Source of the DNA: Massariosphaeria phaeospora
Taxonomy: Eukaryota > Ascomycota > Dothideomycetes > Pleosporales
NCBI GenBank assembly: GCA_011032825.1
Contig: JAADJZ010000015.1
Coordinates: forward strand, 124,001 to 188,000
DNA: 64,000 bases
Direction of reading: 5' to 3'
Shown piece after piece: positions 24,508-55,483 of this stretch. The notes beneath the pieces were generated by a model. The model had not been told where the DNA came from and did not search any database. It saw only the letters and a program-made list of their open reading frames with translations. Positions within the stretch are counted from its first letter, which is position 1; each line of letters begins with the position of its first letter. A program made the translations under genes and the position numbers.

Positions 24508-24795
24508 CTACGCTCCGGCCAGCATCTCATCTGAAACGTAGTAACCAACAAGCTCGCGCTCGTTATAAGAGCCCCGCTTTGTGTACGCAATAAGTTGCCG
24601 TGCCGGGGACCTTGCAGTGAGTGACGGCGAACTTGTGGGCCTCGAGATATCTTTGGCCGTAGGCATACTCGGCTTGTTCTGTAGTAAGTTAGTGCGTGGG
24701 GGGAGGGGGGAAGTGTGCAGATATGTTACTTACCGATGATGCACTGCTTTATAGCTTTGAACGTCTTGTACAGTGTTATCGAAGAGTATAACCAT
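24508..24795 (-). pseudogene. AYG small-protein family, copy A (frameshifted pseudogene)
   Basis: Degraded member of the nine-copy family. The exon 2 remnant (24678-24508) encodes EQAEYAYGQRYLEAHKFAV in one frame; the matching LIAYTKRGSYNERE block is in another, so an indel lies near 24615. The conserved phase-1 intron is intact (24733-24679, GTAAGT...ACAG) after an ATC ATC G codon end. In exon 1 the only ATG (24795) is out of frame with the Ile-Ile codons, implying a second indel. It diverges from copy B (start codons 510 bp apart). Confidence 0.7.
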
Positions 24796-25305
24796 AGTGA
24801 TGGGAGGTTGTGGGTAACTGAGAGGTAGGTTTGTCGGGTGTAAGAGGAGATTTTGGACGTAGATACGGAAGTTTAAGTAGAAGCGATGAGGGTTGCAATG
24901 TGGAATGGAGGTCTATATAGGTACGGACTCCTTGTTCGGCTTTGCGACCTTCTGGCCAAGCTCTCGGTAAGCCTACAAGAATCTACATCTGCAAAGGTAC
25001 TTTTTGCTAACACCTACTAGAGCAAAACCGCTGCGTCTCAAAGTTGGAACCGCCAACTCCTCTTAATCTATTTGCTACATTGAATGAATGGTATTACCGC
25101 AAACGTGAAAGTGTGAGGGAAAGCAAAAGAGAGAGAGAGAGAGAGAGAAGAGGCGAAGACTTTTGCTCCGTGAGAGCAACGGAAATTTCTCGCAGAGGAT
25201 AACCACGTCACCGGCGCCACTGAAACCGCTACGGAAAAATTATCTCCCGAGTGGAAAATCAAGAACCTCAGATTAATTCTTCTCCAGCCTCCTCACACAC
25301 CCATC
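24796..25305. promoter_or_regulatory. Divergent intergenic region between family copies A and B
   Basis: 510 bp with a GA microsatellite at about 25129-25149. It would have served both divergent family members. No factor sites recognised. Confidence 0.35.
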
Positions 25306-25762
25306 ATGTCCTTTCCTTCTCGAATGGGCATCGTCCCTTACAACGGCACCATGGCGGAAGACGCGGGCCCAGTCGGCAGCTACATGCTTACCCAAGAAAT
25401 CATCAGTGAGTTCGCAGCTCGCCCTTCCGCCCTCAGCCCCCACTAACAACCATTAAACAGACAAGGCCCAGTACGCCTACGGCGACGTCTATCCCCACGG
25501 CCATACGTTCAGCGTCCTCGAAGTCCCACTAGACCGACAAGAAATCGCGCCGAAGCGTACTTGGGAGGCCCGACTCATTGTCTATACGCGCGCAGGTTGT
25601 TTCTCCGAGCACACCATCGTCAAGGAAGCGCGAGTCCCGGCAGCCATCTGGTACAATGTGGAGGGACGTTGGACCGCCGGTGCGCCGTATATGATCGAAG
25701 CCCTGGAGGAGCTAGCTAGAATGGTGGACGTGGACTACAATAGGAAGTTTAATTCCACGTAG
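25306..25762 (+). CDS. AYG small-protein family, copy B
   Basis: Family member that looks intact. Exon 1 25306-25405, intron 25406-25460 (GTGAGT...ACAG, phase 1), exon 2 25461-25762; 133 residues. Exon 1 ends in LTQEII; the split codon gives Asn, then KAQYAYGDVYPHGHTFSVLE, ARLIVYTRAGCFSEHTIVKE, and a C-terminal helix ALEELARMVDVDY. No signal peptide or membrane span, so probably intracellular. Predicted order is helix-strand-strand-strand-helix. A branch site/acceptor-like signature (gctaac...caatag at 25826-25841) lies downstream of the stop and is shared with copy C, so a 3'-UTR intron or an alternative C-terminus is possible. Function unknown. Confidence 0.72.
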
Positions 25763-26629
25763 TAGGGTTGCTTCGTTTGACAAGGGTGGGCTTTACATGA
25801 TGTGCTCTTTAGCTGGAATGCGTACGCTAACGATTCAATAGGAACTCAAATGCTATGAGCGCATGCACGAACGGCGAACATAACACGCAAGATGAAGTTC
25901 TTCTGAACTCCTTGCTGGGATCTACCTAGATCAATCAATCTAGAACTTCAACAACTCGCTGAACCCCAAACAAGAATAACATTTATGCAAGTTCCCAATC
26001 GATCCATTCTATACCACCAATCTCGTATACATACACGAAACAATAGACCGGGCTCCTCTACACTAACCCCCCAAAGCTACAAACCAACATATTGCTCTCG
26101 CTGCCCACCCCGCCTACCTAGCATCTATCTAGCCATTCCCCTTCCACTCCCGCTCAAATACTGCACCCTATTACCCCACACCCCCCTCAGCCAATTTCCT
26201 ACATACAAAGTCTTGAAAACAGGTAAGTTGGACGAGATGAATGCATAATGCATGGTAACGTTTCTAGCAGCCCAGCCGTATCCGCGCAGAATGTCACAAT
26301 TCAGTTTTCAATTCCGTTTCTCTTTCTTGTGCGGCATTTGGCACGAAACATTACTATAAACTCAAACTACAGAGTGAAAGTCTGGGAGAGAAAGAAACGG
26401 TGAGAGAGAGAAGAGGTCGAATCAGTGGCACGACTGTGTAAGAGTGAAAGAGATAGAAGTCTTTTTGTATCCTAGCGCCCAAGCTTGCGGGACGTCACCG
26501 CCGCCGTCACCGCCTCAGGGACCAACCACGGGATATCAATCTTCCGAGAGCAAGTATAAAGAGCCTGAGAATGCGAATACACATCCCGACACCAAACTTC
26601 TCCACACACCAACCACCTACAAAGTTATC
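25763..26629. other. Spacer between family copies B and C
   Basis: The segment about 25826-25975 is similar to about 27060-27230 downstream of copy C, including caatag, atgctatg-gcgca and gaacttcaacaac-cgctg. The duplication therefore included 3' flanks. Otherwise nothing recognised. Confidence 0.5.
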
Positions 26630-27011
26630 ATGGGTTTAGAAGAAAACTACATCCGCAAGCAGAACATCATCAGTAAGCCCCCACTAGATATGCAACCTAA
26701 GCATCGCTGACGTTCATCGACTAGGCCAGGCCCAGTTCGCCTATGGTGCGCGGTATCCCCATGGCTCTACCTTCAGTGTCATCGAGTTTCAACCGGGCCA
26801 TAATTCTAAGATCGGGAACTTCTACATTGCTCAACTTATAGTCTATCCGCGACTGGATTCTTTCGTCGAGCGTGTGGTCGTCAAGGAAGCAAAAGCCAAA
26901 GATGACACACCACTAAGTATCTTCGCGGAGGCTAGGACTGCCGTGTACGAACTTGCCCGTTTGGTGGATGAGGATGCACACAAGCTGTATGCTGCCCCCA
27001 AGGAGAAATGA
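26630..27011 (+). CDS. AYG small-protein family, copy C
   Basis: Exon 1 26630-26672 (MGLEENYIRKQNII plus one base), intron 26673-26724 (GTAAGC...CTAG, phase 1), exon 2 26725-27011; 109 residues. The split codon gives Ser, then QAQFAYGARYPHGSTFSVIE, QLIVYPRLDSFVERVVVKE and a terminal helix VYELARLVDEDAHKLY. It is the closest relative of copy B, in tandem with it and sharing downstream sequence. No targeting signal seen. An alternative third exon using a donor near 26984 (GTATGC) and the acceptor at about 27078 is open but unproven. Function unknown. Confidence 0.72.
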
Positions 27012-27862
27012 TTGACGGTGTCGGTGAGAATCATCTAGCGCTCTTTATTATCTAGTGTGTATACTAACTATCAATAGAATCTCGATGCTATGCGCGCAAG
27101 CCCAGACAAGCAGGAGTAAGCGGCTAGGGACATATCAGCAAAAAGACGCAAGGTCTTCCGACTTCCTTACCGGGATCTTATCTAGATAGATCAAACTAGG
27201 AACTTCAACAACACGCTGCACTGCCTAACTAATGATACCATCCGCCCGTGCATGTTCCTATGAACTCTTCCAACCAAATTCTCCTATTCTTGAGTGTAGA
27301 GACGGATAAAACAACATAAAAGTGTAGGCATAAGCAACAGCGGCCAACGCACGTCCTTTTAAACTTTGTTCTGCGATGACTTTGAGCTCAATTGAAACCC
27401 TTATAAGAACATTTTCAATCAAAGGTTTTCGCGAGCTTGTTGCGACGAGACCTTTTTTTTTTGGAACCGTGAGTTGAGTGGTTGATTCGTTTTGTGGAGA
27501 GCGCTATTAGAACCATGGTTCGTCAATAACAGTCTACACAAACCTAATTTGAAGGACAGTTTCTACCCACCCTCAACATCACTACTCCCTTTGGTCGCTA
27601 TCGACGGTCGGTTGAATAAATGCTATTGTGCGGCACAGCATACTGACGTCAGCAGGAAAAGGACTTGGCTGCATGAACTCGATTAAGGTCCTCTTCGTCA
27701 TCGATGCGGCACAGCTGCATAGCCAAAGATCTGTCCACAACGATCTGTTCACATCAGTATCGCATATATATCAGCTTTTACACACAAACAGGACACCGTA
27801 CTTTACTGAAAGCACGTACATGTGCTGATCACAAATCAAAATCTCGACTAAAAACTTCCTAG
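27012..27862. other. Intergenic
   Basis: The first 220 bp are the duplicated 3' flank shared with copy B. About 27488-27532 is similar, in inverted orientation, to 19480-19515 (core tagaaccatggttcgtca). No gene recognised. Confidence 0.4.
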
Positions 27863-29572
27863 ATGAAGCCATCAAACATGAATCGAGATGAGAGCCCTCC
27901 TCGTCCACCTACATCGACATTCTCAAATCTTTCAGAAGATCTCAAGCTCGACGTATTCGATTTCGTCCGATCCAAGAGCGACCAAGGGAATGCGCGGCTG
28001 GTCAGCCAGGTGAGCGCGATCTCTGCCATGCTGTTTTCTTCAATTCGGACACGCTGACTCTTTTCCTAGGAATGGAACCGCCTTATGAGGCCGGCAATGT
28101 GGAGAGACTTCACGACGAGTTTGCGAGGCTCTTTCGCAAATGATCTCCACAAGCCATCAGAACAGCAGCTTGTCTGCTTCCATGACATCCGCGCGCTGGC
28201 TGTGGGGGGAAAACATGTGGGGTCCGATTACGAAGCCTGCTTCTCGAGCTTCATGCGCCTGTTGCGCAGCGATCAGTTGCTTCACTTCACTAGCGCCAAA
28301 GAAACTCCGCTCAAGATGGTGCAGCTGCTCAGTATACTACGTCAACAGAAGAATCTACGAAGCTTCCGAGCGCGATTGGATTTGTCCAACACGGCCAGCG
28401 AAGACAAGGCGTCTTGGACTACTGAGCAGACTTCCTTGGTCACATCAGCTCTCCGTGCACTGACGTCCCTCCGGATATATTTCAAAAATGGATCCAGCGC
28501 GGACAACGGTCATGAGATGGAATGCAGCAGTAGTCTCGTGAAAGCTGCGCCTCTGCTCGATTGTCTCGAGATATGTGGATGGCGGCCGACCCCAAACTGG
28601 CGGGAAGTCTGGGGCCCCCGGATCGACCCAATCCCTCCAACGGCTCTCTTCGGGAATACTGCAATTCTAAACCACATTCCTCGAAAACTTAGGCACCTTC
28701 TGCTGGCTGACGCGAATCTATCTGGCGTCGAAACCACGCTCCTCAGCGCGCTTGATTGCGCCACTCTCTGTTCGCTGAAACTCGAATACTGCGACAAGAT
28801 TGTCCCTTTCTTGCAAGCACTCACGACCTCTATCCAGCAAACAGGAACTCAGCTCAAAGTTCTTACCATTCGCACCCGAAACGACGAGATAGCGGGTGAC
28901 AACGATTGCACCCGTGAAGTGAGAGATCTGCTATCTTCTTTTGGGGGCTTGGAGGAGCTCGAACTCGACTACATGTGGTGCGGATACCTTGATTGGAAAG
29001 CCACCCTCCGCACTCATCGGACACTGAAGAAGTTCGAAATCGGCTCCGGGCATCTGGGCGATGGGCACCCTCTTTGGACCGAGAGAATAGCGGCGGCGCT
29101 GAACCAGTGCCCGAATCTGCAGTACTTTATTTATTCCCCCACCCGACTCACGTCTGGATACATTTTGGACTGCCAGATTCCAGGCTCGCTACCTATGGGA
29201 CTCGTAGAGTCGCTTGATGTTGTCGCGGCAACCCCGACTCTCCGCAAGCTCCGTTTGCTGACTGCACCTGGACTTAGCGAAGATAGGATCAACCGCCGGG
29301 ACCCAGCCTGGGTTCAAAAAGCCAGCGATATGGCTCAAGGCGTTGCTACGCTGGTCCTAACGCATCTCTACTTAAAGGGGTCAAACATCCAGCTGCTTAT
29401 TCTGTCCCCTAGCTCGCGATGGAAACAAGCTCATAATGATCGCAACCAACACTATTACCCGCATTACTGTTACAGGCTCCAGACAGTCGACTATAAGGGC
29501 AAGAAACTAATCATCGCCGCTCCTCTACGCGACTATATAGCGGAGTACCCTGACGCCGCGATTTTTGTGTGA
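27863..29572 (+). CDS. F-box/LRR-like protein
   Basis: Exon 1 27863-28009, intron 28010-28069 (60 nt, phase 0), exon 2 28070-29572; 549 residues. An F-box-like segment (NLSEDLKLDVFDFV, then ARLVSQEWNRLMRPAMW across the splice) is at about 20-65. It is followed by a long region with irregular leucine-rich repeats (KLRHLLLADANLSG, LCSLKLEYCDKIVPFL, GLEELELDYMWCGY, TLKKFEIGSG). The expected role is a substrate adaptor of an SCF ubiquitin ligase, but such fungal F-box/LRR proteins are numerous and rapidly diverging, and no substrate can be named. The last about 60 residues are less repeat-like. Confidence 0.75.
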
Positions 29573-30424: not shown

Positions 30425-31668
30425 CTAACACCTCGCTCTGTTCACGCGGTCCCTGATCGCCTGATCAAGCCCAGTCATCGTCTGGTCGGTAACGAGCCTT
30501 GCAGAGAGCGTAACAACCGATCCGATTTCCTCTACACTCTTGCCCTGCATCGCACCCCATTCCGCAAAATCGTTCATAGTCAGATCTCGGTTTCTTATTC
30601 CCTGTTGCTGTCGAGTCTGTGCTAGGAAGAACTGGGCGTCTTGCTGATCTCTCTCTTTGTATTCCTGGCCCCTTGCTCGAAATTCCGCAATGCGAATCAT
30701 TTTGCCCATAAGTTGCATTCTCCAATCACCATGAAAAGCCGTGAAGTGATGGCCTTCCCAGGCGACTAGGTGGCTGTTCACACTGAGAGCTTCCCTTGCA
30801 CTTGGATCGGCGTGCTCGTCCCATCTATTATTGAAGGGGTCTTCTTTATTGATTTGTGGAATGATTTCGAATTTCCCAGGGTTTTTTGCGACCATTCTTG
30901 TGACAGCCTCATTCATTGCTTGAAGAAACTCAGGTCCCTGGTCAGGGGGGATTGAGTAGTCGATATCTCCTGTTTTGCCATCTGGTCCACGTGAACCAAA
31001 TGCAATGCCAGTGATGCCGCCCACGAAGATCATCTTGTATTTACTTACCAATCCAAAGTCACGCTCTAAATCGCCTAATTCACGGTCGACGTCTTCAAGT
31101 ACTAACACAAATTAAAACACGATCGCAGAGGGAACAAGAGCAACATACCTTGGATCCATTCGGGATATGTCAATGCCTTTTCCTGGCCTGACATTCGCTT
31201 GTCCAATTGTGAGTTGAACTCGAGTTCCTCTAGGCCACGTTTGGCATTTCCACATGGTGTTACCCGCTTGATATCCGAACTATCATAGAGGGCGCCCCGC
31301 TCAATCGCCATCGAAGGACCCTCCGGTTCCTCATTTCCGTTGGGCCGTCCCGGTCGAGGCTTGGTACCAGATGCAGGCCTGTAGCCGGCAGGGGGTTTAG
31401 CAGGTCGGGGATTGGGAGTGACTCGTTTGGCGAGCCCATCATTACGTGGATCGTCGAGCGGGTAGTCACTGATATGGGTGAAGTCCACTTTAGGAGATCG
31501 TTCAGCGAGTCCATCATTGCGAGGATCGTCGAGCGGGTAGTCGCTTATATGAGTGAAGTCGACTTTGGGGGCTCTCTCATCAAGGGCGTCGTTAGCACCT
31601 TGAAGAGCTCGAGCCTGAACTCCGCCCAAGGCGATGAGGCCCAAGATGGTAGCGAGAACGTGACGCAT
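30425..31668 (-). CDS. Secreted protein: Kex2-flanked repeat plus nucleotidyltransferase-like domain
   Basis: Exon 1 31668-31149, intron 31148-31102 (GTATGT...TTAG, phase 1), exon 2 31101-30425; 398 residues. A signal peptide (residues 1 to about 19, LATILGLIALGGVQA) is followed by two nearly identical units (about 33-55 and 58-80) of the form PKVDFTHISDYPLDDPRN-DGLA. They are bounded by DER, ER and KR, so the second ends in a Kex2-type Lys-Arg site. A Pro/Gly-rich linker follows. The C-terminal half contains FVGGITGIAFGSRG and then GDIDYS (D219-x-D221), a GG...GS...DxD pattern like the nucleotidyltransferase fold, with further helices. Repeats cut at dibasic sites recall fungal ribosomal-peptide precursors, but only two units exist and only one perfect KR. 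Role unknown. Confidence 0.7.
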
Positions 31669-33528
31669 TTTACACGGTTGAGGTTATTTGTGAAGTAAAG
31701 AAAACGAGATAGGCTTTCAAAAGATCAGATGCTGTAGTAAGAAGCGGTGCTGGACTGTTGTATGGTCGAGAAAGGAGGGTGCGCTCAACTCCCTTTATGT
31801 AGCGTTATGAGCTGGAGGTGCGCCCTTGAGGACACATCTGGTGCATTTTGACACCTATGTCTCTTCTGAACTTAGCTATCGAGGGCTGCGATCGAACCAA
31901 TCTCTGCATTCCACGTTCATCATGAACAGAAGGTCGCTCCTGAGAACCAAATCCAAGAATGGCACAGTAGTATATCATGTGAACGGTACGGGGCCGACAC
32001 AGAAATGTGATCCGTTGTGCCTCTTCAGAGATTGGGAAGCACGAGTCCTTTCCTGGCCTCGAACGATAGATGGTCCTGCCTCTTTTCATCACCTAACCCT
32101 ACGAGCTTACTAGAGTGTCCTTTTCTAAAGGCTGTGTCTGTTTCGAAAATCATATTGTCTCACTCCATCACCCTTACCGTAGATCACTGTTCCTCCTTTT
32201 GAGCTTAGGATTGTTTCAAACATGCTCCTAGCTATGTGAGCAGTCGGCATTCTTGCTCAAGGCCACAAGACTACCAACACACATCGCCGCTCTAATTTGA
32301 AACGACCAGGAAGTATAGCTGTACTTGTACGGCGTGGTTGTGAAGCCGCCATCGGAAACCGGAGTTTGACTCAGATTCTGTGAAAGGTGTATATTTCGCC
32401 GTTAGAAGGATCGAGTTCGCCGCCAATTACCTTGGCCTTGATGCTGGTGAGCTTGTTTCGAAGTTGGAGGGATTTCCCTCGCCGTAGGTATGGCGACCCG
32501 AGAGGGGGATTTATCCGGGGACCTCGCCGCAATCCTGTGGCGCGCACAACATCTGGCGCCTAAAGCCAAGTGGTTGAGCCAACCAGATTGAGTTTATTTC
32601 TGAAGTTGCCTGAGTCACTCGTGTCATCCGATCCTTTCGGCACCGGTGGTAGCATGTTAACGTCACGTGTGCAGTAATTCACACTCCTTTAACCTCACCT
32701 ACAAGTTTGCTATCAAAGCTCAATGGACACATATCAGAACGAGAAGGATCTGAAGGCGTGAGGGACACATCATCTGCAGATGAAAGACGATACAGCGGCG
32801 CACGCGAAGAGGGTCATGTCTTGGACAAAGGAATCGGAGCAATGGCTGCAGACTTTCGTTCGTTTCGAGGTATCCAACGTTGTATTGAAGACGTAGTCTC
32901 AAGACCAGAGCAGCGATGTGGCTTTTAGTGTTGCGTAATGCTGAATTTTGTTGGGGGTAAACCTTGTGCCCCAGGTTATTAGCAAGTTCGAATTCACATA
33001 GACTCTGCATTAGTCTTTAGTTACCAGAATAGGGACTGCTCACTGCTGTGAGTATGAACTGGTTCGTCTGATCAATCGCGAGTAATCATGCTGTAAGTAT
33101 AGCATACGTGCATTGACTATTTCCCTTACTAAATGGGAGATGCATTATTATGGTTAGAAACAACAACCTGCGTATTCTGCGTCTTTCCATCTTACACATC
33201 AAAAATCATGGACACAGAGCCGAAGCCGTATTTAGATTTGAGACTATGAGGTCGCACTATAGAGAGTAGAAACGGAGTTCATTATACAACAACTCAGGCA
33301 AGTAACCAAACAGAACAGAATCTCTGTTGAGCAAAGCATATGTAATAGTGGATTGGAATTTATAACATGCGGGAAAATAGCTCTAAGCAGAATACAACAG
33401 GTTCAGAATACACTACAACGAGCGAAAGAGCGGAAAACCAGTTCCGAATGGTTCCGAATGGTTCCAAAAACACCAACACCAACACCAATCAACCCGCGAA
33501 ATTTAGCACGAACAATGAGCGACCATGC
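31669..33528. other. 1.9-kb gene-free region
   Basis: Promoter of the repeat-containing secreted gene plus unassigned DNA up to the 3' end of the next gene. Open frames are short and without motifs. A duplicated gaatggttcc occurs near 33446-33465. Confidence 0.4.
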
Positions 33529-34143
33529 CTAAAGAGGTTTGGGGATCTCAGAGTAAGGGCTGTACTTGAGTGATTCAGGACGCGGAAAGCGAGTCTTCTG
33601 CATGTCTTCAGGGCACTCCATGCCATCATAGCCGCCCTCTACATGGAGATCGTAATCACTCTCCCACACGTGGAAAGCCAACAGGACATTGTCCCCGTCG
33701 TCTTGGGGATCCCTCTTGCCCATGCAGTCGTGGAAGCCGTCGTGGAACCTCTGCGCGAGATCCTTGTTGCCGAATAGGCGATCGGGAGTGTCTTGCTTGA
33801 GACAGAGGTAGAAGACTACGCCTTTGCCGCCCGACGTTTCGCCCCCACACCAGAGGTTGGTGCACATTCCACGCGTGCCGAGGTACTGCTTGGGGATCTC
33901 GGCGCGCGCTTCCGAGCTGAGTCCCATTTGCAAATCGTCGGTTTCTCCCATGAGTCGGAGGCCCGCGAGAAAGGCACGCTCGCCAAAACTCGTCCAGGCA
34001 GTGTCGTGGCAATAGTGCCAGATGTCGTCTCGTTTGGCTAGAGAGGTTGAATTGAAAGACTCCCGGGTAACATTAAGTGGCGTGGCAACAGAGAGACTGG
34101 CCATGGTCGCTACCGCCAGAGTAGTTGGAGAGAGAAACTTCAT
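33529..34143 (-). CDS. Small secreted Cys-containing protein with pro-peptide (effector-like)
   Basis: Single-exon, 204-residue protein. A signal peptide (MKFLSPTTLAVATMASLSVA) is followed by a short Ser/Asn-rich pro-segment ending at K37-R38, a Kex2-type site. The mature part starts DDIWHYCHDTAW and contains six cysteines (C45 and those in RGMC, LWC, FYLC, HDC, MEC), enough for three disulfides. There is a possible N-glycosylation site in the pro-segment (NVTRE). No known domain recognised. Size, leader and cysteine content fit a candidate secreted effector, which is inference. It lies in the accessory stretch with other secreted proteins. Confidence 0.75.
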   Translation of the reverse strand: MKFLSPTTLAVATMASLSVATPLNVTRESFNSTSLAKRDDIWHYCHDTAWTSFGERAFLAGLRLMGETDDLQMGLSSEARAEIPKQYLGTRGMCTNLWCGGETSGGKGVVFYLCLKQDTPDRLFGNKDLAQRFHDGFHDCMGKRDPQDDGDNVLLAFHVWESDYDLHVEGGYDGMECPEDMQKTRFPRPESLKYSPYSEIPKPL

Positions 34144-34980
34144 TGCGGAAAGGATTGGAAGTTATAGACGCGTGCAAGATTCGGTGATGCTGTTGTTGGA
34201 TTGGAAAAGACAGTGTGGTGAAGAAGTTTTTCTGACGATAAAGACAGTGCAAACCGCAGTCTTAAAATACTTCACAGCGTTCTGTGACTTCGGCCTTTGG
34301 TGTATATCCCTAGCCAAGGTTTTGGGTCGACTAGTGCTCTTCTGGACAGAGTATCATCTTTCCTATACCAACTCGAGGCGAACCTGTACATGTGTACACA
34401 TTTCGAAGTGAAAGAACAGATTGTGTTCTACCGCCGCAAACCAATCCCCCTGTCTCGGTGCCACAGTGATTCTAGCCAGTCCTTCTCGTGACATGTACAT
34501 TTGTCCTTTGGACAAAGATCCATCTTTTGGTGCAAAGCCAAACGTGGAGCAGTCGGTGTACCAAAATAGGATCGCACTTCTGTGCCACAGCACTGGAATT
34601 GGATCCTCCTGTCTCGGTGCCACCAGGGTCGGGGATATGAACGTAAGACACCGCACAGATGCGGCATAGCCGTCATAGGCCCCAGCACGTGCCCACAAGA
34701 AAACATTTGCGCGATCGGGACAGACAACATCGTTGCGTCAAAGCATGTTTTAGCCACGTGGAAGGAAGAAGTTGAGACGGACGGTTTTTGGTACAATGTG
34801 TCCAGAAACGACCCGCAGTACAAAACCAGCGAAATGGCCGTCTACAATCAACTCCAAAGTCACTGTCTCTCTCCAATCACTTTCTTATCCCACTCTTATC
34901 GCTCAAACTACTGAGTTTTGGGCAATTTTCCCGTTGTCTTGAATTCTTCATCCAGCAGGCGCATATGCACCAATTGCAAC
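34144..34980. other. Intergenic between two secreted-protein genes
   Basis: A 16-base cctgtctcggtgccac string occurs twice (about 34449 and 34608). No gene recognised. Divergent promoters for the flanking secreted-protein genes. Confidence 0.4.
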
Positions 34981-36374
34981 ATGTATAAATGCATCATCTC
35001 AATCGTAGCTGTGGCTACCACTTTGCTTTCGATCCCGCCCACAGCCTCCGCAAACTCCAAGATCATTCCATGTGTCGTCGGCAATGGTAACGATGAGCTT
35101 TGCGACTCTTGTGACGAAAGTAAGGCCATCGAAGTCACATCGTGGGAGAAAGCCACTTGGGTGAAGGACTTTACCATGGGAGACGCTCCGTCTGATACCG
35201 GACCTGGCTACAAGGTGTACTGGGTGAGCATTGCTCTGTCGTGTGGACTTATGTTCACTACTTTCGCTGACAAGCCCACCAGAAAATCGAGCAGCCAGCG
35301 GACAATTGCCGCATTCTCCTCTTCGATGATTTCAACACCGACAAAGGAAGCGTCGAACCAAACCTCTCCGGAAGAATCCGGGTCTCGGTCAACAAAGGCG
35401 GCTGCTACATGTCAACGATCCGCTCCGGTGGTAAGGTCCTCCCTAACGAACCGTACTTTGTCAAGGTGGCTGACCTCCTCGTCCTCCTATGTAGGCGTGG
35501 GCGCTGGAGCTTGCTGTGGGGCCGATTGCACGAGAATCGGCGCGTTCCCAGGTGCTCCGACAGCGAAGCGTGACAAGATAGGCCAATCTCGGAGCAGAGG
35601 AATGCGGTCCTTGCCTGCTCCAGATAATAGGAATATTTCGATAGCGAACAGCAAGGAGTCCCGGGCCTCGACGCGAGACCATGTCCGGCGCAAAACTGGC
35701 GGCCAGCATCCTAATCCCCACGCCCAGCCGGCCCCAGGACCAGCACCCGAAGGACAGTGGAATGTAAGCCATCGCAGCCTTGTTCGTGTACCATGTACGG
35801 CCTTCTGATTCCCGAAACAGTGCAAAGCCGAGAAGAACGGGGCAACGTACACGAAGTCTGGAAAGCAGGTCGTCGACGGAAACTCGTTTCCCTGCGGCTC
35901 CGACATCGGCTGCGACCTATCGATTGACTTTTCCGCGAGCGTAGCTTCAGGCGTGTCCGCCGAGAAGACGACAACCTACACCAACAGCGTCGGCAGAACG
36001 CACGAAGTGAGCGCCGGTTGGATGTACGCCGGGCCCATGGCAACCTATACATTCGCGTACAGCAAGGAGTTCTCCGAGGCGCTGGCGTCGTCGACGGGCA
36101 CGTCCAACACGGAGACAAAGTCCAAGGGCATCGCGTTTAGGCAGCAAGTCACGCCGGGGTTCCAATACAATGGTAAGACCTGGCCCCAAGAGTTAGCTAC
36201 GATCGTTGCGCTAATGCCCCATCAATAGTCTGGTGGGCGCCTACGCTTACGTGTCAGATGTGGACGCTCGCTTGCGATGGAGGCGTGGGCCCGTTCGAGA
36301 AATGCGAGCCTTTGATCGATGCGAATGGTAGTCCAGTTGGGGAGCAAGGGATTATGACGACTGGCCGAGCTTAG
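34981..36374 (+). CDS. Cys-rich secreted protein, unknown family (middle splice unresolved)
   Basis: Exons I can support: 34981-35223 (signal peptide CIISIVAVATTLLSIPPTAS, then CVVGNGNDELCDSCDE), 35283-35430 (ADNCRILLFDDFNTD, NKGGCYMSTIRSG), an exon ending at 35763 (PAPEGQWN), 35821-36172 and 36229-36374 (stop). Introns at 35224-35282, 35764-35820 and 36173-36228 are clear. The 5' end of the third coding exon is not resolved; a phase-1 acceptor at about 35541, 35554, 35582 or 35603 would fit a donor at 35431. The C-terminal part is rich in Ser/Thr and alternating polar residues (SASVASGVSAEKTTTYTNSV), with a Trp/Cys block (WWAPTLTCQMWTLAC). The alternating pattern recalls beta-rich pore-forming folds, but this is only a resemblance. 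Function unknown. Confidence 0.6.
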
Positions 36375-36500
36375 ACAATTAGTGAACTCGCGTATCGTAT
36401 AATGTTGAAAAGCAGAAGAAGAGAGAGAATGAAGGAGACAACGAGCGAGCAGAAAGAGAGAAGAAAGGTCTTACACCAAGGGTAGCTTGGCCTTAGGCTA

Positions 36501-36525
36501 GGGGGGGGGGGGGGGGGGGGGGGGG
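36501..36525 (+). repeat. Poly(G) tract of 25
   Basis: Uninterrupted run of G after gccttaggcta. The exact length may be unreliable because long homopolymers are error-prone. Confidence 0.8.
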
Positions 36526-36593
36526 AGCTACCAAAATGTTGTGTTGATAGGGAGAACTATCTCGCGTGACATCTACACTACACAGGATAGAAG

Positions 36594-36790
36594 ACAACCT
36601 ACAATTTAGCTTTTGTCTTATATCTTCCAGTATCAAGTTAACACTTAGTACAAAATTGTAGCTCTATAGAGTTATATCGCTACATTAATATACTCGTTTT
36701 AGAGGCGCGCAGATTTATCGTTATAGTTCCAGGAGATCCCGATTCCGTAAGAGCGAGCGGTCACCCTAGATAGTAACGGCAAACAGGTAA
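36594..36790 (+). repeat. AT-rich dispersed repeat, uninterrupted copy
   Basis: Aligns by eye with the two halves flanking the Fot1/pogo element (about 41040-41134 and 42986-43090). Shared blocks: acaa-ttag-ttt, ttatatctt, ttttagaggcgcgc, tttatc and ending gtaata. The copies are diverged and AT-rich, so probably an old mutated transposon fragment or solo terminal repeat. Family not identified. Confidence 0.6.
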
Positions 36791-36891
36791 TATTGTGCAC
36801 TTAGCTATTTCTACATTTCGAAAGCCCATCAACGAACCGGCCGCTCATACCTTTGATGGACATGTGTGCTCTCAACGACCAGATCCCCGTT

Positions 36892-40485: not shown

Positions 40486-40940
40486 TCAGCCCAGCACACC
40501 CTCATCGACAACTTTATTGAATAGCTCTTCCAGCGCCTCAAAGAAGCCACTGTCCGACTCTCCTTGACCAAGAACCGTCTCAAAAGCTGGCTTCCCGTCC
40601 TCGTCGGCTCCCGTCATTTCAACGAGGTGCGCGCGGAATTGATCGCCAGGGTTGTCTGAGAACTCTTTCCTGCTGAGCATTATCGAGGGGCGTGTGCTGC
40701 TGGTTGTGCGGGCTTGGTCTGTGCATAGAATAGGGGGAAGTGGTTAGCTGGCTGGTTACTACTGGTCTGGTCGATCGCTGAAGGGGACTTACCGAGGATG
40801 AGCGTCTTGAGGTGCTGGATCGGCTTCAGCTCGGAGCGCGTGAGTCCTATCAGGTTGCTGGCGGGCTCGCTGGCTGGCTCGCTGGTTGGCGGGCTGGCTG
40901 GCGAGTTGTTGGACCGGCTGGCGGGAGGGGCGTCGGTCAT
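40486..40940 (-). CDS. AYG small-protein family, divergent copy D
   Basis: Exon 1 40940-40793, intron 40792-40719 (74 nt, GTAAGT...ACAG, phase 1), exon 2 40718-40486; 126 residues. The N-terminus is a Ser/Pro/Ala low-complexity tail. The exon ends LKTLIL, then the split codon (Asp) and QART, replacing the usual QAQFAYG. Later DQFRAHLVEMTG aligns with the (A)xLIVYT strand and GFFEALEELFNKVVDEG with the terminal helix. It is assigned to the family by intron position and phase plus the second half; the central motif has decayed. It diverges from copy E, with the Fot1/pogo insertion between them. Function unknown. Confidence 0.58.
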
Positions 40941-41134
40941 GCGGACGGACTCGGTTTCAATCCTTCGGATTGGTTCTGTTAGATACCCTCTCTTGCGGAA
41001 ACCAGATCTCTAAAACTAAGGCTGAACACGCTACGTTATAAATAACACCCTATTTACAACTTAGATTTTATATTATATCTTACAATATTAAGTAAACGCT
41101 GTGTATAGAATTATAGCTTTCTATAGGTATATTA

Positions 41135-42983
41135 ACGTAATGGATCACCGAACCCGCCAGATCACCGAACCCGCCAAAATTCCTTGGCACAACCAACTCA
41201 TCTCAAAGATTATCAAATTAATCACTATCAAACAAGGAACCTGCGTACGTCGTGCTAGCCTCAGATTCAGAAATTGCTTTTGAATCCTTTTGGCAGGTTT
41301 GGGCATTGTGCCCTGTATCACTACAGTTTCTACAGCGCCGTAGAGCTGGTTGTGCCCTTTCTTAACCCTCCCCACTACGTGCTTTCTTTGATAGCTGAGG
41401 CGCTGTAGACGCTTTAGCAGCTACCTGCGCTGATCTGTTACTGTACTCTATCGTACTACTTGTCTAAATTCGCTTCCGTTTGCGCGATTTCCGCTTGGTT
41501 ATCCCTGCTAATTGATCTTCAAGCTCCTTAATACGGTGGTCTTTGAGCGCGTTCTGATGCAACATTAATTCAGCTCCTTTTACAAGCTAAGAGAAGCTAC
41601 TTTGTGCAAAAGTAGGCGATCTAGTGATAGAATCGCGTACTAGCTTTGATTGCGATCCAAATTCGAGTGTATTGCTTAGAGTCTTTGACTGCCACGGCGT
41701 CTTTAGTGCGGAGGGCAGTAGTAGAGTACGCAGCTGTACTTCAAGACAATCAAGGACTACCTGCGCGTTGATAGGAACTAGCTCTGAAGCCCTAAAGGCT
41801 TTCTTGCAGTTCTCTGTTGTAAACACCTCGAAAAACGCGTCTCTAAAGGCTAGCAGGAAGCCTTCCTTGTTAATATAGAAGACGCGCCGGCGCGCCAAGT
41901 CCTAGACGCGTTGGGAGTACTTTAGCTTCAGCAGTAAGAAGCAGACCACATCTAGAAGCTAGAGAATATAGGATGAATAGGCTAGCATGCAGAGCGTGAG
42001 GATCTTGTTCTCAAGGCAATCGTCCTTGAAATCCTGAGATTGGTGGCTCTCATGACCGTCTAAAATAAGCAGCTGATACACTCTCACCTAACGCGCCTTT
42101 GTATGCGCGTCAAAATGCTTCAACCACTTAAGACTAAGAGAGTTGTTTGTCCGGCCGTTCTTAGAGACTGAGAGCTTCTAATTGCTAGGTATAGAGTCCT
42201 CCCCGTACTATGCTGAAATGTAAACGCGTCCTTTGTAGATGATAAAGAGCAGGATCGCGTACCCTGCGGCGCAGATGCTCTGGATAACTGTTACCCACTT
42301 CCGGTTGCCTGGCTGGATAAGATTAGGTCGAGTACGTCTCTAAGAGCCTGTGACAACTTTCATAGACCTAATCACGCGCATCTGGAAGCCAGTTTCGTCG
42401 AAGTTGTGCACGTCATCCTCCTGGATGCCGTACTAGGCTTTGGTATCCCTAACTAGCTTGAATCACGCGCCAATCACCTCAGGATCTTCCTGCTGTATCC
42501 TCTGCCGGTCCTTTGCTCAATTGAAGGCCATCTTAAGCTCGCCTAAACGCGTTACCAATCTTGTAGCCTATTTCTTGCCCACTGGCTCTCCACCTCGCGC
42601 AGCTACTAGTTTATCCCCTATATCTCCCACCTCAGACAGCCGGGGGGCAAATCCTCGCGAATCAAGGTTGAGGATATATTAAACGATTGTCTGCTCTTCA
42701 GTTGCAGTAAGCTTCTGGCAGTTGGCAGGTAATTCGCCTCGAAATAAGATTCCTCTCGCACGTTCGTCAAGGCTCTGGCGTTTGACGTTAAAGGCAATAG
42801 CAGCCGCTCGATAGCTTCGGAATTAGCCGGAATTATAGGCTTCAAGGGCAAGCTGAAGTCTCCCTTCGTGTTGGTGTGATAACGCGTTAGTTAGTTGAGA
42901 CATATCGCGTTGATGGGGGAGGTAGCAGTCTTGGCAAAATCTGGTGGGTTCGGTGATCTGGCGGGTTCGGTGATCCATTACGT
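41135..42983 (-). mobile_element. Fot1/pogo-type (Tc1-mariner superfamily) DNA transposon, inactive
   Basis: 1849-bp element with terminal inverted repeats of about 45 bp beginning acgtaatggatcaccgaacc. Each end carries two gatcaccgaaccc(g/a)cc subrepeats and is flanked by TA (41133-41134 and 42984-42985), the expected target duplication. Size and TA target fit Fot1/pogo elements. It encodes one degenerate transposase on the - strand. It is nested inside the AT-rich repeat and lies between the divergent family copies D and E. Confidence 0.88.
41218..42903 (-). pseudogene. Fot1/pogo transposase pseudogene
   Basis: A reading frame of about 560 codons interrupted by about ten stops, mostly TAG, as expected when C-to-T changes convert CAG or TGG. 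Recognisable parts: an N-terminal helix-turn-helix region, a CENPB-type segment (QKLTATEEQTIV, NLDSRGFAPRLSEVGD), the DDE domain with NFDETGFQMR and LLILDGHESHQS, a YINKEGFLLAFRDAFFEVFT block, and a C-terminal zinc knuckle CRNCSDTGHNAQTC. The many stops fit repeat-induced point mutation. Not a functional enzyme. Confidence 0.87.
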
Positions 42984-43305
42984 TACTGTGTTAGTTAATC
43001 TTTTTAGAGGCGCGCTAATTTATCTTTTAAGTTCTAGATATTCTGCTTCTATAAGAGCACCTTGTCTTTGCTAAATGTTGTTAACCCTGTAATACATATC
43101 AAGAGTCTAGGCAGATAGGTGGGCCTAGTCCGAGTTTGGTCATGTAACCTCGCTTAGCTACAAAGGTACGGCCACCTGCTGTATCGGGCACTAGCGCCGG
43201 GTATGTACTGGACACCAACTTGTAGCCTAAAACCACGCCTCCTCTTCCACATCCTCGCCGACAGTCACTATAACCACTCAATACCTACTCTGATCAACTG
43301 AGAAC

Positions 43306-43922
43306 ATGGCAGGACGCGGCCGCTATGAAGAGGTCAAGCTTATGGAGATGCTGAAGGGGCTTATTATCAGTACGTTGCCGGCAACTGCCATCTCTTAGTA
43401 TTAAACATGTGAGGCGAGACGCAGGAGCACGGGATAATCTGGTGTCTTTGCGTCGCTTTCCTCTTACATCGCGGCTGCTTTTCCTCCCTCGTGTCTATCG
43501 ATTCTACCAAGACAAACGGTTTGCTCGTGCTGCTGCTCCGCTCCTCATGTCCACCCTACCGGCCCCACCATCTCCTACCCCCAATAACCCCTCCCTCATC
43601 TCTCACCCCCCATCTCCTATCCCCCTCCTATCCTCCCAACCCCTTCTAACCCCTCCTTCCCCCCTCCCCAGCCCAAGGCCAAGCGACCTTCGGCGCCCAA
43701 AACAACCTCGGAAGTGTCTACAGCGTCGTCGTCGACAAGAAGATGAGCCCGGGCGGCGCGGACCAGAAGCAGCAGTGGCACTACCACGCCAGCCTTATCA
43801 GCTACAAGATGCAGGGCGATTGGCGCAAGTACAAGCTCATGCGAAGGAATGCGGATCCGGCGTGTCGGACGGCGGTCGAGGCGTTGGAGGATCTGCTCGA
43901 GACGCTGTATGCGGAGATGTAG
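43306..43922 (+). CDS. AYG small-protein family, copy E
   Basis: Exon 1 43306-43369 (MAGRGRYEEVKLMEMLKGLI-I plus one base), intron 43370-43671 (302 nt, GTACGT...CCAG, very pyrimidine-rich), exon 2 43672-43922; 104 residues. The split codon gives Thr, followed by QGQATFGAQNNLGSVYSVVV, HYHASLISYKMQGDWRKYK and a terminal helix ACRTAVEALEDLLETLYAEM. The intron is at the family position and phase but is six times longer than in other copies, probably through growth of the CT-rich tract. No targeting signal. Of all copies, this one most resembles a double-stranded-RNA-binding fold at its C-terminus (inference). Function unknown. Confidence 0.68.
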
Positions 43923-49850: not shown

Positions 49851-51253
49851 ATGGAGTTGAACAAACACCTCAGTTCGAGAGTCGTACTTTCGGCGCCTTC
49901 AGATCACAGCAAGATTCGCACCCTCAGTGAAGTCATTGTTGCAGTATCTGTGTTGAGTATCGTCGGTGCAGGATGGATCATAGTGAGCTTCTGTGTAAGT
50001 GACAAGTACGACTCTCAAATTAGTGAGGATATTAACTGTACGTATAGATGTTTAAACAAGTCAGGACATTTAGGCACCAGCTCATTCTTGGGCTTGCCAT
50101 TTCTGATTTCTGGATGGCCGTGAACTTCCTATCATCATGTGCTATGAACTTGTCCGGCCATACGATTGGAGATCCTCGGCAGCAGAAGTTTTGTAGCTTC
50201 AACGGCTTCATGACTCAGTTGTTCGTCGTTCAGAGTCAGTGTTCTCCCCTAGTCTTTGATCGACAGCGCTTAATTGTTTGACAGCGGACTACTGGGTGCT
50301 AGTAATCGCTATTTGCACCTTTCTAATTTTAGCCAATTACAAGCACATGTCCACGTGGATTCAGGAGCACCGCGTAGTCTTATGGTTACTTCCATGGGGA
50401 TTGTCTTCGTTGTGGGCGGCAATAGGGTTGGCATCTGCGGGTTATGGAAATATCGGCGCTTGTAAGTTAACCTTTCACGTCCAACATGTTCGTAGGAGCA
50501 TTCAGAAAATAACATCTGACCCGTACGCAGGGTGCTGGTTTACCAGTGACAAAGTGCGCCTCCTCGTCAACTTTATCCCTCGATGGCTTATTATCATCGT
50601 AATTCTCGTACTATATGCCCGTCTCTACCGACTCATCTACACGGCGCACAACCGCTTCATGTCTTTCAACGACGATACGTCACCGCAAGGTCTCCAGCCC
50701 GATACGCTCGAGCCGGAAACCGGATCAGTATCCTCTACCCACCGCATTGGGCACCCGACGATATCTTTGCAAATGGAGAGCAAAGACACAGAAGCAGGCC
50801 TTGAGCAAACTGATGGGACTATACACGGACGAACGCATGCCAGGCAACCGAGTCCGCTGCTTAAGAAGATGGCTCGGCAGATGATGGCTTATCCGCTTGT
50901 GTATATGCTCATTTGGACGATACCTACCAGCATTCGAATATATCAATCTGTCACCGGAAAGCCCGCGCCCTTTGGTATCGCGACTGTGGACAAGGTAAGC
51001 ATTCGACGACCCAAACGTATCAGCGAAATCTCCCTTGCTTAACATTAATCAGGCGTGTATTGTCATCCAAGGCTTCGCAGATGCCGTCATCTACGGCATC
51101 AACGAGACGTCCGTTGCGGCATGGCGCGAGAGCTTCCGCAAGTCCCCGCCTACAGCTCCGGCACCTGCACTACCGAGCATCTCCGTCAACGTCCGTCACG
51201 ATATCAGGGTGGAGCGGACTCTACGATCTGAATCACTTGATGAAATCCTGTAA
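49851..51253 (+). CDS. G-protein-coupled receptor, cAMP-receptor/Git3-like
   Basis: Seven-span receptor related to fungal Git3/Gpr1-like and Dictyostelium cAMP-receptor-like GPCRs. Five exons: 49851-49994, 50048-50234, 50285-50461, 50531-50994 and 51053-51253; introns of 53, 50, 69 and 58 nt; 390 residues. TM1 is IVAVSVLSIVGAGWIIVSFC, TM2 follows FRHQLILGLAISDFW (the LxxxDxx pattern), TM3 contains VLVIAICTFLILANYK, TM4 LWLLPWGLSSLWAAIG, and TM5 follows the Trp/Cys loop (WCWF...RWLIIIVILVLYARLY). A long Ser/Thr-rich third cytoplasmic loop leads to TM6 (MAYPLVYMLIWTIPTSIRIY) and TM7 (ACIVIQGFADAVIYGINETS). Ligand unknown; signalling through a G-alpha/cAMP route is inferred from the family. Confidence 0.87.
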
Positions 51254-51715
51254 CATTCCGACTTGTACTAATATGTTGTTTTGAAGGCTAGGTTTTGGCA
51301 AAAGTACTCATGACATAGAGTTCTGCAATACTATTGGGTGGCATTAACTTGCTAGATTACTTTACATACGCGCATCTTGCTTCCTTCCGTTTGTTCTCCT
51401 GTCCCTCACCCTCCTTCCAGAATTCGTTGCTGATGAAGACAGACGTTAGGCAATCTTCTTAACAGTATATGATTCTCTAGCTGTATGTAGATGCTTTACC
51501 TTTCTCTTTACGAAGCCCTGTTGTATATATATACTAGGTAATGTATAAGAGGGGACATGTACATGTGGCACCCAGGGGTAAGAGTGTAGGAGAAGATACA
51601 TTGTTCATCAATATACTTTATGAACCAGTTCGACAGGACCCTGGAGAGATCTACTCGATCCTGATCCTCCCACCACCCGGAGAAGTCGCGCCGTACTCGA
51701 GGTAAGCCATGCCCC
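51254..51715. other. Intergenic
   Basis: Convergent 3' flanks of the GPCR and family copy F. Nothing recognised. Confidence 0.4.
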
Positions 51716-52151
51716 CTATGCAATCTCTTTCGCATTCACATCCGCATCCACCTTCTGCGCCAGCTCCAGCAGCACCCTGATCGCATTGTCACTCGCCCAC
51801 GCGTTCTCATCCCCGGCCTTGCGCTCCAGCTCCATGCGCACTTTCTTGACAACGACCGGGTGGCTGAAGGTGCCGGCGTTGGTGTACACAACGACGCGCG
51901 CGATGTGCGTCTCGGTGACGACGTTCTTGCTGCCGGGTTCGGGCTTGGCGGGGTTGCGGATTTTGGACTCGATGACGGCGAAGGTATGGCCGGTGGGGGT
52001 GCAGCGCGCCGTAGGCGAATTGCGCTTGCGAGGTGATGTTTTGCTTCAGGGCGTGGAGATTGGAGAGGTCGTCGAGCGGGGATGGGGATGGGGTTTGGCC
52101 TGGCGGGTGGCGCAGGCGGACTTGCGGGGGGGTGAAGAGCGGGCGGTACAT
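51716..52151 (-). pseudogene. AYG small-protein family, copy F: intronless and frameshifted
   Basis: The N-terminal frame from 52151 runs continuously through LKQNITSQAQFAYGALHPH, so the family intron is absent at exactly the conserved site. Just after, near 51990, one extra C (cacc-ggc) shifts the frame. The other frame then gives GHTFAVIESK, VVVYTNAGTFSHPVVVKK and a terminal helix NAIRVLLELAQKVDADVN, ending at a stop at 51716. Without the indel it would be a typical member of about 144 residues. It diverges from copy G. Either a recent pseudogene or a one-base sequencing error. Confidence 0.75.
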
Positions 52152-52583
52152 TGTGGTGGTAGGGCGGAGTTTCGGTGGTGGTGGTGGTGGATCGTGGTTG
52201 TAAGAGGATGGATGAGGGGTGCTTATGTACGGTCGGCAGGATTTGCCACTTTGGGGTCTGGAGGTGAGGGAAGTAGAGGTGAAGTTCACTGTTATTGGTC
52301 AGATTATGGACTCACTGATGGGTCAGAGACTCCTATGGGGGCCACTCCTTTCACTGGAGTTAGAGTGAAGGGTGTTCCTGTAGGTGAGTCTTGTTGGCTG
52401 CTAATATGGTAAGTTTGTGAGGTAAGTTGGCTATGACACGACTCAGACTACGTCGCGTAAGGTGAAGTAGCTAAAACGTACAGCTAACCTAGTTATTTGA
52501 CTGACTAACCCCAGCTCTCTAGTCCCTTCGACCTTCAACAGCACAGACCCCGACGTCTCGATAACACCACCCACAACATCAAA
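52152..52583. promoter_or_regulatory. Divergent intergenic region between family copies F and G
   Basis: 432 bp with a GGT/GTT-rich stretch near 52170-52200. No factor sites recognised. Confidence 0.35.
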
Positions 52584-53067
52584 ATGACCGCCGTCCAGCT
52601 CGAAGAAATCCGCGCGGCCAACCTCATCAAGGAAACCATCATTCGTAAGCTGTATCCTCGTTTTCGATCCAGCTTTGTGCTAATATCTATCTATCTGTTA
52701 GCCCAGGCTCAGTTCGCTTATGGCAAGCTTTTCCCAGAACATACTTTCAGTATCATCACCTGGACAAACCGCCAAGTGGCCCACGCCCAACTCATCGCCT
52801 ACCAGGGGCCTCATCTCTTCGACAGCTTTACGAAGATTCAAGCGGCCGCTATCTACCTCGAAACTGAGGCCATGGCTCTTTCCAGGTTGCTTCAATTCGT
52901 GAATATGGATGTCGCTATACGTATGGACGGCGACATACCACTTAGGTTCAAAGAAAGAATGGGTAAGTGTTGATATATACATTAGAGATACAGTTGTATC
53001 TATACTAATTCAGCAATCAGATATCAAGATTGAAAGAGCAGATTCATTTAACTCTCATCCGCTCTGA
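52584..53067 (+). CDS. AYG small-protein family, copy G (three exons)
   Basis: Exon 1 52584-52644, intron 52645-52701 (GTAAGC...TTAG, phase 1), exon 2 52702-52962, intron 52963-53020 (GTAAGT...ATCAG), exon 3 53021-53067; 122 residues. If intron 2 is retained, translation ends three codons later at 52973. Exon 1 ends AANLIKETII, the split codon gives Pro, then QAQFAYGKLFPEHTFSIITW (one residue shorter in the PHGHTF block) and AHAQLIAYQGPHLF. The C-terminal half is less like the others. The second intron parallels the caatag signature downstream of copies B and C, suggesting a three-exon ancestor. Function unknown. Confidence 0.68.
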
Positions 53068-53534
53068 ATCTGTCCACAGTAATTTCCACCATGGTGCTAT
53101 TTGGGGATGGTCGAGAAACGGAGATCTTAGAGGAGGAAGTCGAGCTATGAAGCTTACATTCACACATAAAGTACTGAGTACTACCGAATGAATGAAAAAT
53201 CCTCTATCCTTCGCTACTGATTCATGAAACATGATTCAACGTATCGCTCAGTAACTTTGCTATACCCCTAGGCATTGAACATATGCTTAGCACAAGCAAT
53301 CCCAACAGGAGATTAAACTGGCGTAGAAAGTGCGTGTACGTTCAGCGCGTAGTGTTTGGTAGGAAAACAGAAAGAAGATGCTCGCAAAGGAAAACAACAA
53401 GTTTGTAGCAAATTGGTTTGCTAACAAGTGGCTACATAAGAACTTACCTTTGCGGCAGTCTACAATCGTACCACCTTTCCCACATCACAACCCCAATCAA
53501 CGAGGAATCAACGCCCGAAAATCCCACAATAAGT
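53068..53534. other. Intergenic
   Basis: Spacer between family copies G and H. Nothing recognised. Confidence 0.35.
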
Positions 53535-54009
53535 ATGGATCTAGGTCCAGACCACCCGGACTTACTCGTCGCCCATCCCGCAATGGCGAAACTAGCCAAA
53601 GCCACCAGGGAAGACATCATCAGGAACTCCCTCTCCCCCAAGCCTTCCCTACCCTACTATAGTCAAGTAAACCTAACATGCGTCCACAGCCAAAGCCGAA
53701 TTCCTGTACGGCGCGGACTACCCCGAAGCCCATACTTTCAGCGTCATCCATGCCCGAACGTCGCACCGCGATCCGTCCGCAGATGAGAAGCCGGTGTTCA
53801 TAGCCGCGCTTGTGGTGTACACGAACGCGGGAAGCTTCAAGGAGCGCAGAGTGCTGTACACGTTCCGGTCGGACGATGCTATGACGCCTCTGTCTCTCAT
53901 GAGGCGGTCTCTGAACGATCTTGCAGGGGAAGTGCTCAATAAGGCTTTCGAGGATGGAGAGATCGTTGGGAGTATTGGCAGTACGGAGGTTCGTCAATGG
54001 AAAAAATAG
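53535..54009 (+). CDS. AYG small-protein family, copy H (splice donor apparently lost)
   Basis: Exon 1 53535-53622 ends ATREDII plus one base at the family position, but the next bases are GG instead of GT (53623-53624). The rest of the expected intron is present: CTAAC branch site and CACAG acceptor ending at 53689. Exon 2 (53690-54009) reads KAEFLYGADYPEAHTFSVIH, AALVVYTNAGSFKERRVLYT and a helical C-terminus. With splicing the product is 135 residues. Without it, translation runs into intron sequence and ends at 53786, losing the conserved core. No alternative GT lies close by. It is either damaged or read wrongly by one base. Confidence 0.6.
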
Positions 54010-54429
54010 GGGTTGTTGAGGGTTTTGTTGATTGCGGTAACTTTGCTGAGTCTGGGTTAAACAACTGAATCCAATAAATAAGTGTTGGTGTTGAGCAATA
54101 TACGTTAGCGCTACGTTCGTGAAACAGAGTAATTCGATTTAGTCTGAACCGCTGTAGCAGGGTCTCTCGTAAAATCCTTGTCTTGAACCCCCGAAGCTGA
54201 TTTCTGTTTACCTCCAACTTCTTTCAGGGACCTAGGGATATAGGGAGTTGGAGGTTATAAGTTATTTGATGGCCTGGAGTTACATAGCGAAGTTATCAAA
54301 GCCTCCTACGTTGTCTATTGAGGAGACCTTACTACACCTCCTAACTTCCTACCATAGAAACCCATGATGCACTCTCAACCTGGCAAGTACCACGTAGAGA
54401 ACTCGATTCGCTCTTCCGCGTTAAGCATA
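54010..54429. other. Intergenic
   Basis: Convergent spacer between family copies H and I. Nothing recognised. Confidence 0.35.
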
Positions 54430-54943
54430 CTATCCCCTTCCATGCCATCGGACCCAATCCCTCAACCCGCCTTTCCGGCCTGTGCATAAAGCTGCTCTGT
54501 CCATCCCATCAGCGCATGCATGCATGCCACGAACGACACACGCCACAGCATCGAAAAATCGCAGCACCGGCATATACGTACCGATCTTTTCGTTTCGCTC
54601 GTAGAAGAAATCTATCATCACGTCGTCCAGATTGTCCAGCAAGCGCTGCAGGGCCGCCAGCTCTGTCGCGCCCAAAGCGAAATCGAGCTCTTTGCGCTCC
54701 TCAAAGCTGTGCAGCTTGGTGTACGCGACTAGGATGCCGATGTAGTCGTCGTTGTATGTAGCGACGACCACGTCGAAAGTATGGGCCGTGGGATTATCGT
54801 GGCCGTGGCAGTAGCGCGCTGTGCCTGGGATGGGTGTCAGTAACTCGGTCGGTCCTGAAGGAGCGCGCCTCGAGGTATTTAGGCTGGGATTGGGGAAGGT
54901 TACTGATGATTTTCTCCTTTATGTTTTTGATAACTTGGTCCAT
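54430..54943 (-). CDS. AYG small-protein family, divergent copy I
   Basis: Exon 1 54943-54904 (MDQVIKNIKEKII plus one base), intron 54903-54825 (GTAACC...CCAG, 79 nt, phase 1), exon 2 54824-54430; 144 residues. A Met at 55018 would add 25 residues. The split codon gives Ser, then TARYCHGHDNPTAHTFDVVV, GILVAYTKLHSFEERKEL and a helix LAALQRLLDNLDDVMIDFFY. It then carries a longer C-terminal extension with a VLRFFDAVACVV stretch and an Arg/Gly-rich end. The AYG motif has become CHG. It is convergent with copy H. Function unknown. Confidence 0.63.
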
Positions 54944-55483
54944 TGAGGGCGGTTGGTGCTCGTCGAGCAAGACGGTGTCGTGGAGAAGTCGTGAGAAATT
55001 CAAAGCTAAAGGAAACACCCAGGATCTTATATAGCCACCAAGCAGCGAACCCTTTTACTTAACACTTTCGGTTTTATAGAAACTGCTTAATCAGCAAACA
55101 GCAGACTCACCTGGATTACAGGCAGCCTTTCCCTTCGATTGCAGCCTTTCCCTTCGATCGCAACCTTTCCCTTCGATCGCAACCTTTCCCTTCTGTTGAT
55201 CTCCTTGTGCCCTTTAAAGCCAAACCGCGTTGAGTCTATCTAATCACCTTGAGCAAACCTAGTACGTGTGCTAAAGAATACACCACGCGGTTAACTTGCA
55301 GAGTAAGCGATGATGTTTCAACATCTGCTAGGCTAACGCCTAGCCTGCCGATAGCGGCTTAGTCAAAAGAGCCCCACCTGGTAGCCCACCATTGGACTCG
55401 CGTAGCCTTGCATGAGACGACATGCACCAAGAGTTGGCGTCCTTTGCACACGGCCAAACTCCAAGGTTTGCTTCACGTACAGC
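54944..55483. other. Intergenic with a 19-bp tandem repeat
   Basis: Divergent promoter between copy I and the HAS1-like gene. Contains the minisatellite listed next. Confidence 0.4.
55122..55197. repeat. 19-bp tandem repeat, four units
   Basis: Four copies of gcarcctttcccttcgatc with small differences: units 1-2 have cagcc, units 3-4 have caacc, and unit 4 diverges at its end. Confidence 0.85.

Follow-up and report, generated by a model that had tools for sequence, protein, structure and literature searches.

What are the small two-exon genes that recur within a single 30-kb region in the fungus Massariosphaeria phaeospora (Dothideomycetes, Pleosporales), and how can they share an intron when their sequences are so dissimilar? 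The genes lie in a window of 64,000 nucleotides (contig C7:124001-188000 of the 42.08-Mb assembly; coordinates below are window positions), for which a first-pass annotation had proposed a family of nine loci. Eight of these (A to H), all between 24.5 and 54.9 kb, are homologous by profile and shuffle tests, while the ninth (I) scores like its own shuffles; five copies are intact (B, C, E, G, and H) and three are damaged (A, D, and F). This is a genuine small gene family, unnamed in any library that we searched, with a common intron site and phase, and it is confined to this stretch within the sensitivity of our searches. In our estimation, the chance is about even that it is a lineage-restricted orphan family that expanded locally, evolves by birth and death, and encodes small, probably intracellular, partner-binding proteins.

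Family Membership and the Phase-1 Intron

A first profile, built from the exon-2 sequences of six copies (B to G) and leaving out A and H, was used to scan the 1543 open reading frames (ORFs) of the window. It recovered one frame of A with an E-value of 1.2e-5 and H with 0.0005; the second frame of A reached 0.02 and the front frame of D merely 0.18. Among 6420 ORFs from 264 kb, leave-one-out profiles recover B to G at 3e-16 to 2.3e-7 (B, 1.1e-14; C, 3.2e-16; downstream frame of D, 7e-9; E, 2.3e-7; exon 2 of F, 1.3e-14; G, 2e-7), and the front half of D, which is in another frame and absent from these profiles, reaches 9e-5 to 1e-3. In the same ORF set, the exon-2 frame of H alone gives 0.003. 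Spliced H scores 24.4 bits (E-value 1.1e-5) against the profile of the six others, with none of 5000 shuffles scoring as high. The exon-2 blocks originally described, [QK]AQ[FY]AYG, HTFSVIE, and LIVYT together with a C-terminal helix, are present as proposed.

The five intact copies have open two-exon models in which a GT..AG intron in phase 1 directly follows Ile-Ile codons:

25306-25762, + strand: copy B, intact; exon 1 25306-25405, intron 25406-25460 (55 nt, phase 1), exon 2 25461-25762; 133 aa
26630-27011, + strand: copy C, intact; exon 1 26630-26672, intron 26673-26724 (52 nt, phase 1), exon 2 26725-27011; 109 aa
43306-43922, + strand: copy H, divergent, intact; exon 1 43306-43369, intron 43370-43671 (302 nt, phase 1), exon 2 43672-43922; 104 aa
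52584-52973, + strand: copy E, intact; exon 1 52584-52644, intron 52645-52701 (57 nt, phase 1), exon 2 52702-52973; 110 aa
54430-54943, - strand: copy G, intact; exon 1 54943-54904, intron 54903-54825 (79 nt, phase 1), exon 2 54824-54430; 144 aa

The G protein carries a C-terminal extension absent from the other copies. The two-exon model of C (109 aa) is 100% identical to the deposited M. phaeospora hypothetical protein BDV95DRAFT_608496.

The intron had been described as common to all loci, which holds with canonical ends for the five intact copies and A; F has a broken donor, and in D the intron is precisely absent. The damaged copies are:

24508-24795, - strand: copy A, pseudogene; intron 24733-24679 (55 nt) with canonical ends kept; profile E-value 1.2e-5 in one of two frames
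51716-52151, - strand: copy D, intronless and frameshifted; recovered by its downstream frame, as above
53535-54009, + strand: copy F, no GT donor; exon 1 and exon 2 (53690-54009) recognizable

The ATG frame of A is out of register with exon 2, within which there is a second frame shift. Exon 1 of F ends ATC ATC A and is followed at 53623 by GG instead of the GT donor, with the acceptor at the expected place. Copy D is frameshifted between ..GALHP and GHTFAVIE, a few codons past the intron site, and reads AAC ATC ACC directly into TCG CAA GCG CAA TTC. Its join, NIT-SQAQFAYG, compared with NII-SQAQFAYG, corresponds to the spliced form at the exact family intron site. Because what is missing from D is precisely the segment modeled as intron in the other copies, D provides independent natural support for splicing. 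Most likely, the intron of D was lost via an intermediate that had been spliced, or through conversion with such an intermediate, which would imply that some copy was transcribed and spliced in the past.

The ninth proposed locus permits a two-exon model with a possible phase-1 intron after Leu-Ile-Leu:

40486-40940, - strand: locus I, two-exon model possible; family homology unsupported

It obtained 1.4 bits in a first profile test, in which 14 of 2000 shuffles scored higher, and -0.6 bits in a second, in which 262 of 5000 scored as high. We left it out of the family because its sequence scores like its own shuffles and a possible intron is insufficient. A genome search with locus I as the query returned itself and one chance match at an E-value of 2.

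Divergence, Local Duplication, and Extent

Pairwise identity among the copies is 18 to 44%, yet intron site and phase are kept in six of them, as the first-pass annotation had recognized; this outliving of sequence by gene structure is unusually clear here, and the intron serves as a stable marker of descent where the sequence signal is nearly lost. The adjacent copies B and C are 44% identical, with nonsynonymous divergence (dN) of 0.53 and synonymous divergence (dS) of 1.22. The third codon position is the most different in 15 of 21 pairs; one pair is tied and five show the opposite, all involving H or E. dN is lower than dS in 16 of the 20 pairs with a defined value and in each of the seven pairs that are 33% or more identical.

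Similarity at the DNA level is found in both orientations (B-C, A-B, B-F, and C-D), a pattern that fits local duplication with inversion. Between B and C, exon 2 is 56% identical and other parts are 52-59% identical, with the exception of an element of 70 nt downstream of each:

25895-25964, + strand: 70-nt element 3' of B, 81-83% identical to the element downstream of C
27150-27221, + strand: 70-nt element 3' of C, counterpart of the element downstream of B

At up to 83%, conservation of this element exceeds that of the genes (56% in exon 2), and no other match to it occurs in the genome at an E-value of 0.01 or less.

No further copies were found by profile within 100 kb on either side, where the best other ORF has an E-value of about 0.2, and when seven family queries (C, consensus, B, F, H, G, and E) were run against the whole genome, all copies returned were in the window. 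Queries with C, an eight-row alignment, and the consensus, run at word-based sensitivity (4, 1256, and 6 candidates, respectively), found no relative in other species among about 5.8 billion proteins; only C was matched. Nor is there a significant match to the family in Pfam, NCBIfam, or PDB sequences, in agreement with the earlier statement that no named family is recognizable. The portions of the literature covered by our searches name the species in four papers and contain no mention of BDV95DRAFT and no published account of the family. Of the eight copies, C alone is matched by a deposited protein at the sensitivity of the protein searches, which suggests that most of the family may have escaped annotation.

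The family is ordinary in kind, as fungi commonly carry duplicated orphan genes specific to one lineage. It resembles other locally duplicated fungal orphan families in having few or no database relatives, local duplication, pseudogenes, and short proteins, and differs from them in that exon-intron structure is the most stable common feature. If the intact copies are expressed, they would offer a compact case of the origin, local spread, and decay of a family without detectable relatives. The aphid bicycle genes (PMC9168663) are likewise very divergent copies whose homology is carried by gene structure; organism and proteins are different, and the parallel is one of method only.

Predicted Products and Competing Explanations

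Based on the favored reading, the orphan family would have expanded within this 30-kb stretch by birth-and-death evolution, leaving the five intact copies beside a pseudogene (A), a frameshifted and intronless copy (D), and a copy without a splice donor (F). Each intact gene would give a protein of about 12-16 kDa. No hydrophobic leader is found in B, C, E, or G, in which the peak 12-residue Kyte-Doolittle mean near the N-terminus is at most 0.78, by crude windows rather than a dedicated signal-peptide predictor; the products are therefore probably intracellular. In H the peak is 1.39, starting at residue 10. A role as secreted effectors is not supported, as an N-terminal signal peptide is lacking in B, C, E, and G by the same crude measure. 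Two predicted structures, both of low confidence, show three or four strands and one C-terminal helix, so the proteins may consist of a short N-terminal segment, whose coding sequence spans the intron, then an antiparallel sheet of three or four strands and a long C-terminal helix. Among six copies the invariant residues are G8, L38, Y41, and L77; this set (G, L, Y, L) contains no catalytic pattern. Since it is mainly hydrophobic core and turn positions that are conserved while loop lengths vary, a partner-binding or regulatory module is likelier than an enzyme, and the copies would diverge in their loops. We thus propose, with moderate confidence, a small intracellular partner-binding protein. 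It is a bolder and improbable extension that the family arose in or close to this lineage, has no relatives elsewhere, and serves recognition inside the cell; its locally duplicated copies would vary their loops but keep the sheet core and the N-terminal part that spans the intron.

The order helix-strand-strand-strand-helix had been likened to a double-stranded-RNA-binding domain (dsRBD; PF00035), and the copies could accordingly be a degenerate family of this domain that binds structured RNA without KKxAK. The one point in its favor is a common topology, in that dsRBDs and the modeled proteins are small alpha/beta units combining an antiparallel sheet with a helix at the C-terminus; the remaining comparisons do not support the likeness, and we consider it highly unlikely. 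The KKxAK signature of dsRBDs is located at the start of helix 2, and no similar motif ([KR][KR]xA[KR]) occurs in B, C, E, G, H, exon 2 of F, or the D piece. A basic bias is also missing, with isoelectric points of 5.6-6.8 in five of these seven (B, C, E, G, and exon 2 of F) and 8.6-8.7 in the D piece and H. The spacing from the strand-3 aromatic to the ALxxL-type helix motif, the region where dsRBDs contact RNA, differs by up to 14 residues among seven copies, from 18 to 32. Both low-confidence models lack the first helix, and no row titled as a dsRBD appears among the 50 structural matches listed for the second. Among Pfam and PDB-sequence matches, no dsRBD occurs up to an E-value of 10; for the Pfam profile (dsrm) this applies to each of eight alignment rows (seven family members plus locus I), with HMMER filters dropping most weak matches. 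The profile-profile probability is 0.1-0.5%, against a positive control that is itself weak (12.8%). The top structural match of model 2, and a joint top match of model 1, is the N-terminal part of AcrIF proteins (7dtr, "an AcrIF protein"; 7xi1 and 7t3j, AcrIF24). As these are phage proteins of 4-17% identity, whose Z-score possibly reflects a mere common arrangement, we do not claim kinship.

The cluster might instead be decaying, its remaining open frames being relics that are no longer expressed or functional. The damage to three of eight copies, the single deposited protein, and dN values not far under dS (and above it in four of 20 pairs) point in this direction; five intact frames with canonical introns have nonetheless survived great divergence, dN is the lower value in the other 16 pairs, and the precise intron loss in D would imply past transcription and splicing of a copy. 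We judge this explanation unlikely, and give a similarly small probability to a family of intracellular proteins diversified by conflict, whether through self/non-self recognition, meiotic drive, antiviral defense, or leaderless delivery. Such conflict would be consistent with clustering, fast divergence, length-variable loops, frequent damage, the lack of a relative found among proteins of other species, and the mere 44% identity of the neighbors B and C. However, dN is below dS in every one of the seven pairs with an identity of 33% or more, and none of the five neighbors with a Pfam match (ten ORFs scanned) is a recognition or drive gene. The nearest HET-domain match, at C7:195993, is about 17 kb beyond G; the whole 42-Mb genome contains 106 HET-domain matches, a large set of putative self-recognition genes, so a match at this distance is unremarkable.

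Several results also weigh against the local orphan family of partner-binding proteins that we favor. The four pairs in which dN exceeds dS run counter to it, dS is undefined in one further pair, and because dS is near saturation, dN/dS is a weak guide. The genome search misses known divergent copies: the C query retrieved only B and F besides itself, the consensus missed A and H, and the E and H queries retrieved only themselves, and distant copies may therefore exist elsewhere. Only C turned up among deposited proteins. The invariant set depends on the alignment, since an eight-row alignment including locus I leaves only L91 and a seven-row alignment Y55 and L91. Finally, the two models have low confidence (predicted local distance difference test scores of 67.8 and 61.3; predicted template modeling scores of 0.57 and 0.50) and conflict over the N-terminal part.

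Neighboring Genes and Other Features

Five of the ten neighboring ORFs scanned have Pfam matches, without a common theme: a pyridine-nucleotide oxidoreductase, V-ATPase C, glycine cleavage T, an RGS-domain protein, and a G-protein-coupled receptor C-terminal match that is below its cut-off. Two further ORFs lie between family copies and have no Pfam match, one at 33532-34161 (- strand), with a hydrophobic start by eye, and one at 34915-36228 (+ strand; the scan covered 35809-36225). The ORF at 31105-31683 (- strand), also without a Pfam match, begins with a hydrophobic stretch and contains a 25-residue unit twice in near-identical form (PKVDFTHISDYPLDDPRNDGLA, then ER or KR); by eye it resembles a Kex2-processed repeat peptide precursor, and its DNA repeat is 79% identical over 96 nt.

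At 36560-36780, 41055-41181, and 42937-43058, the window contains fragments of an interspersed repeat that is very roughly 160-200 bp in length. A scan of these three pieces found no inverted repeats. The first has at least 39 other matches in the genome at 71-81% identity. Some copies seem by eye to have inverted ends of about 27 bp, so the repeat is possibly a DNA transposon of the non-autonomous type. At 60486-60681 there is a short tandem repeat, its period being about 71 bp.
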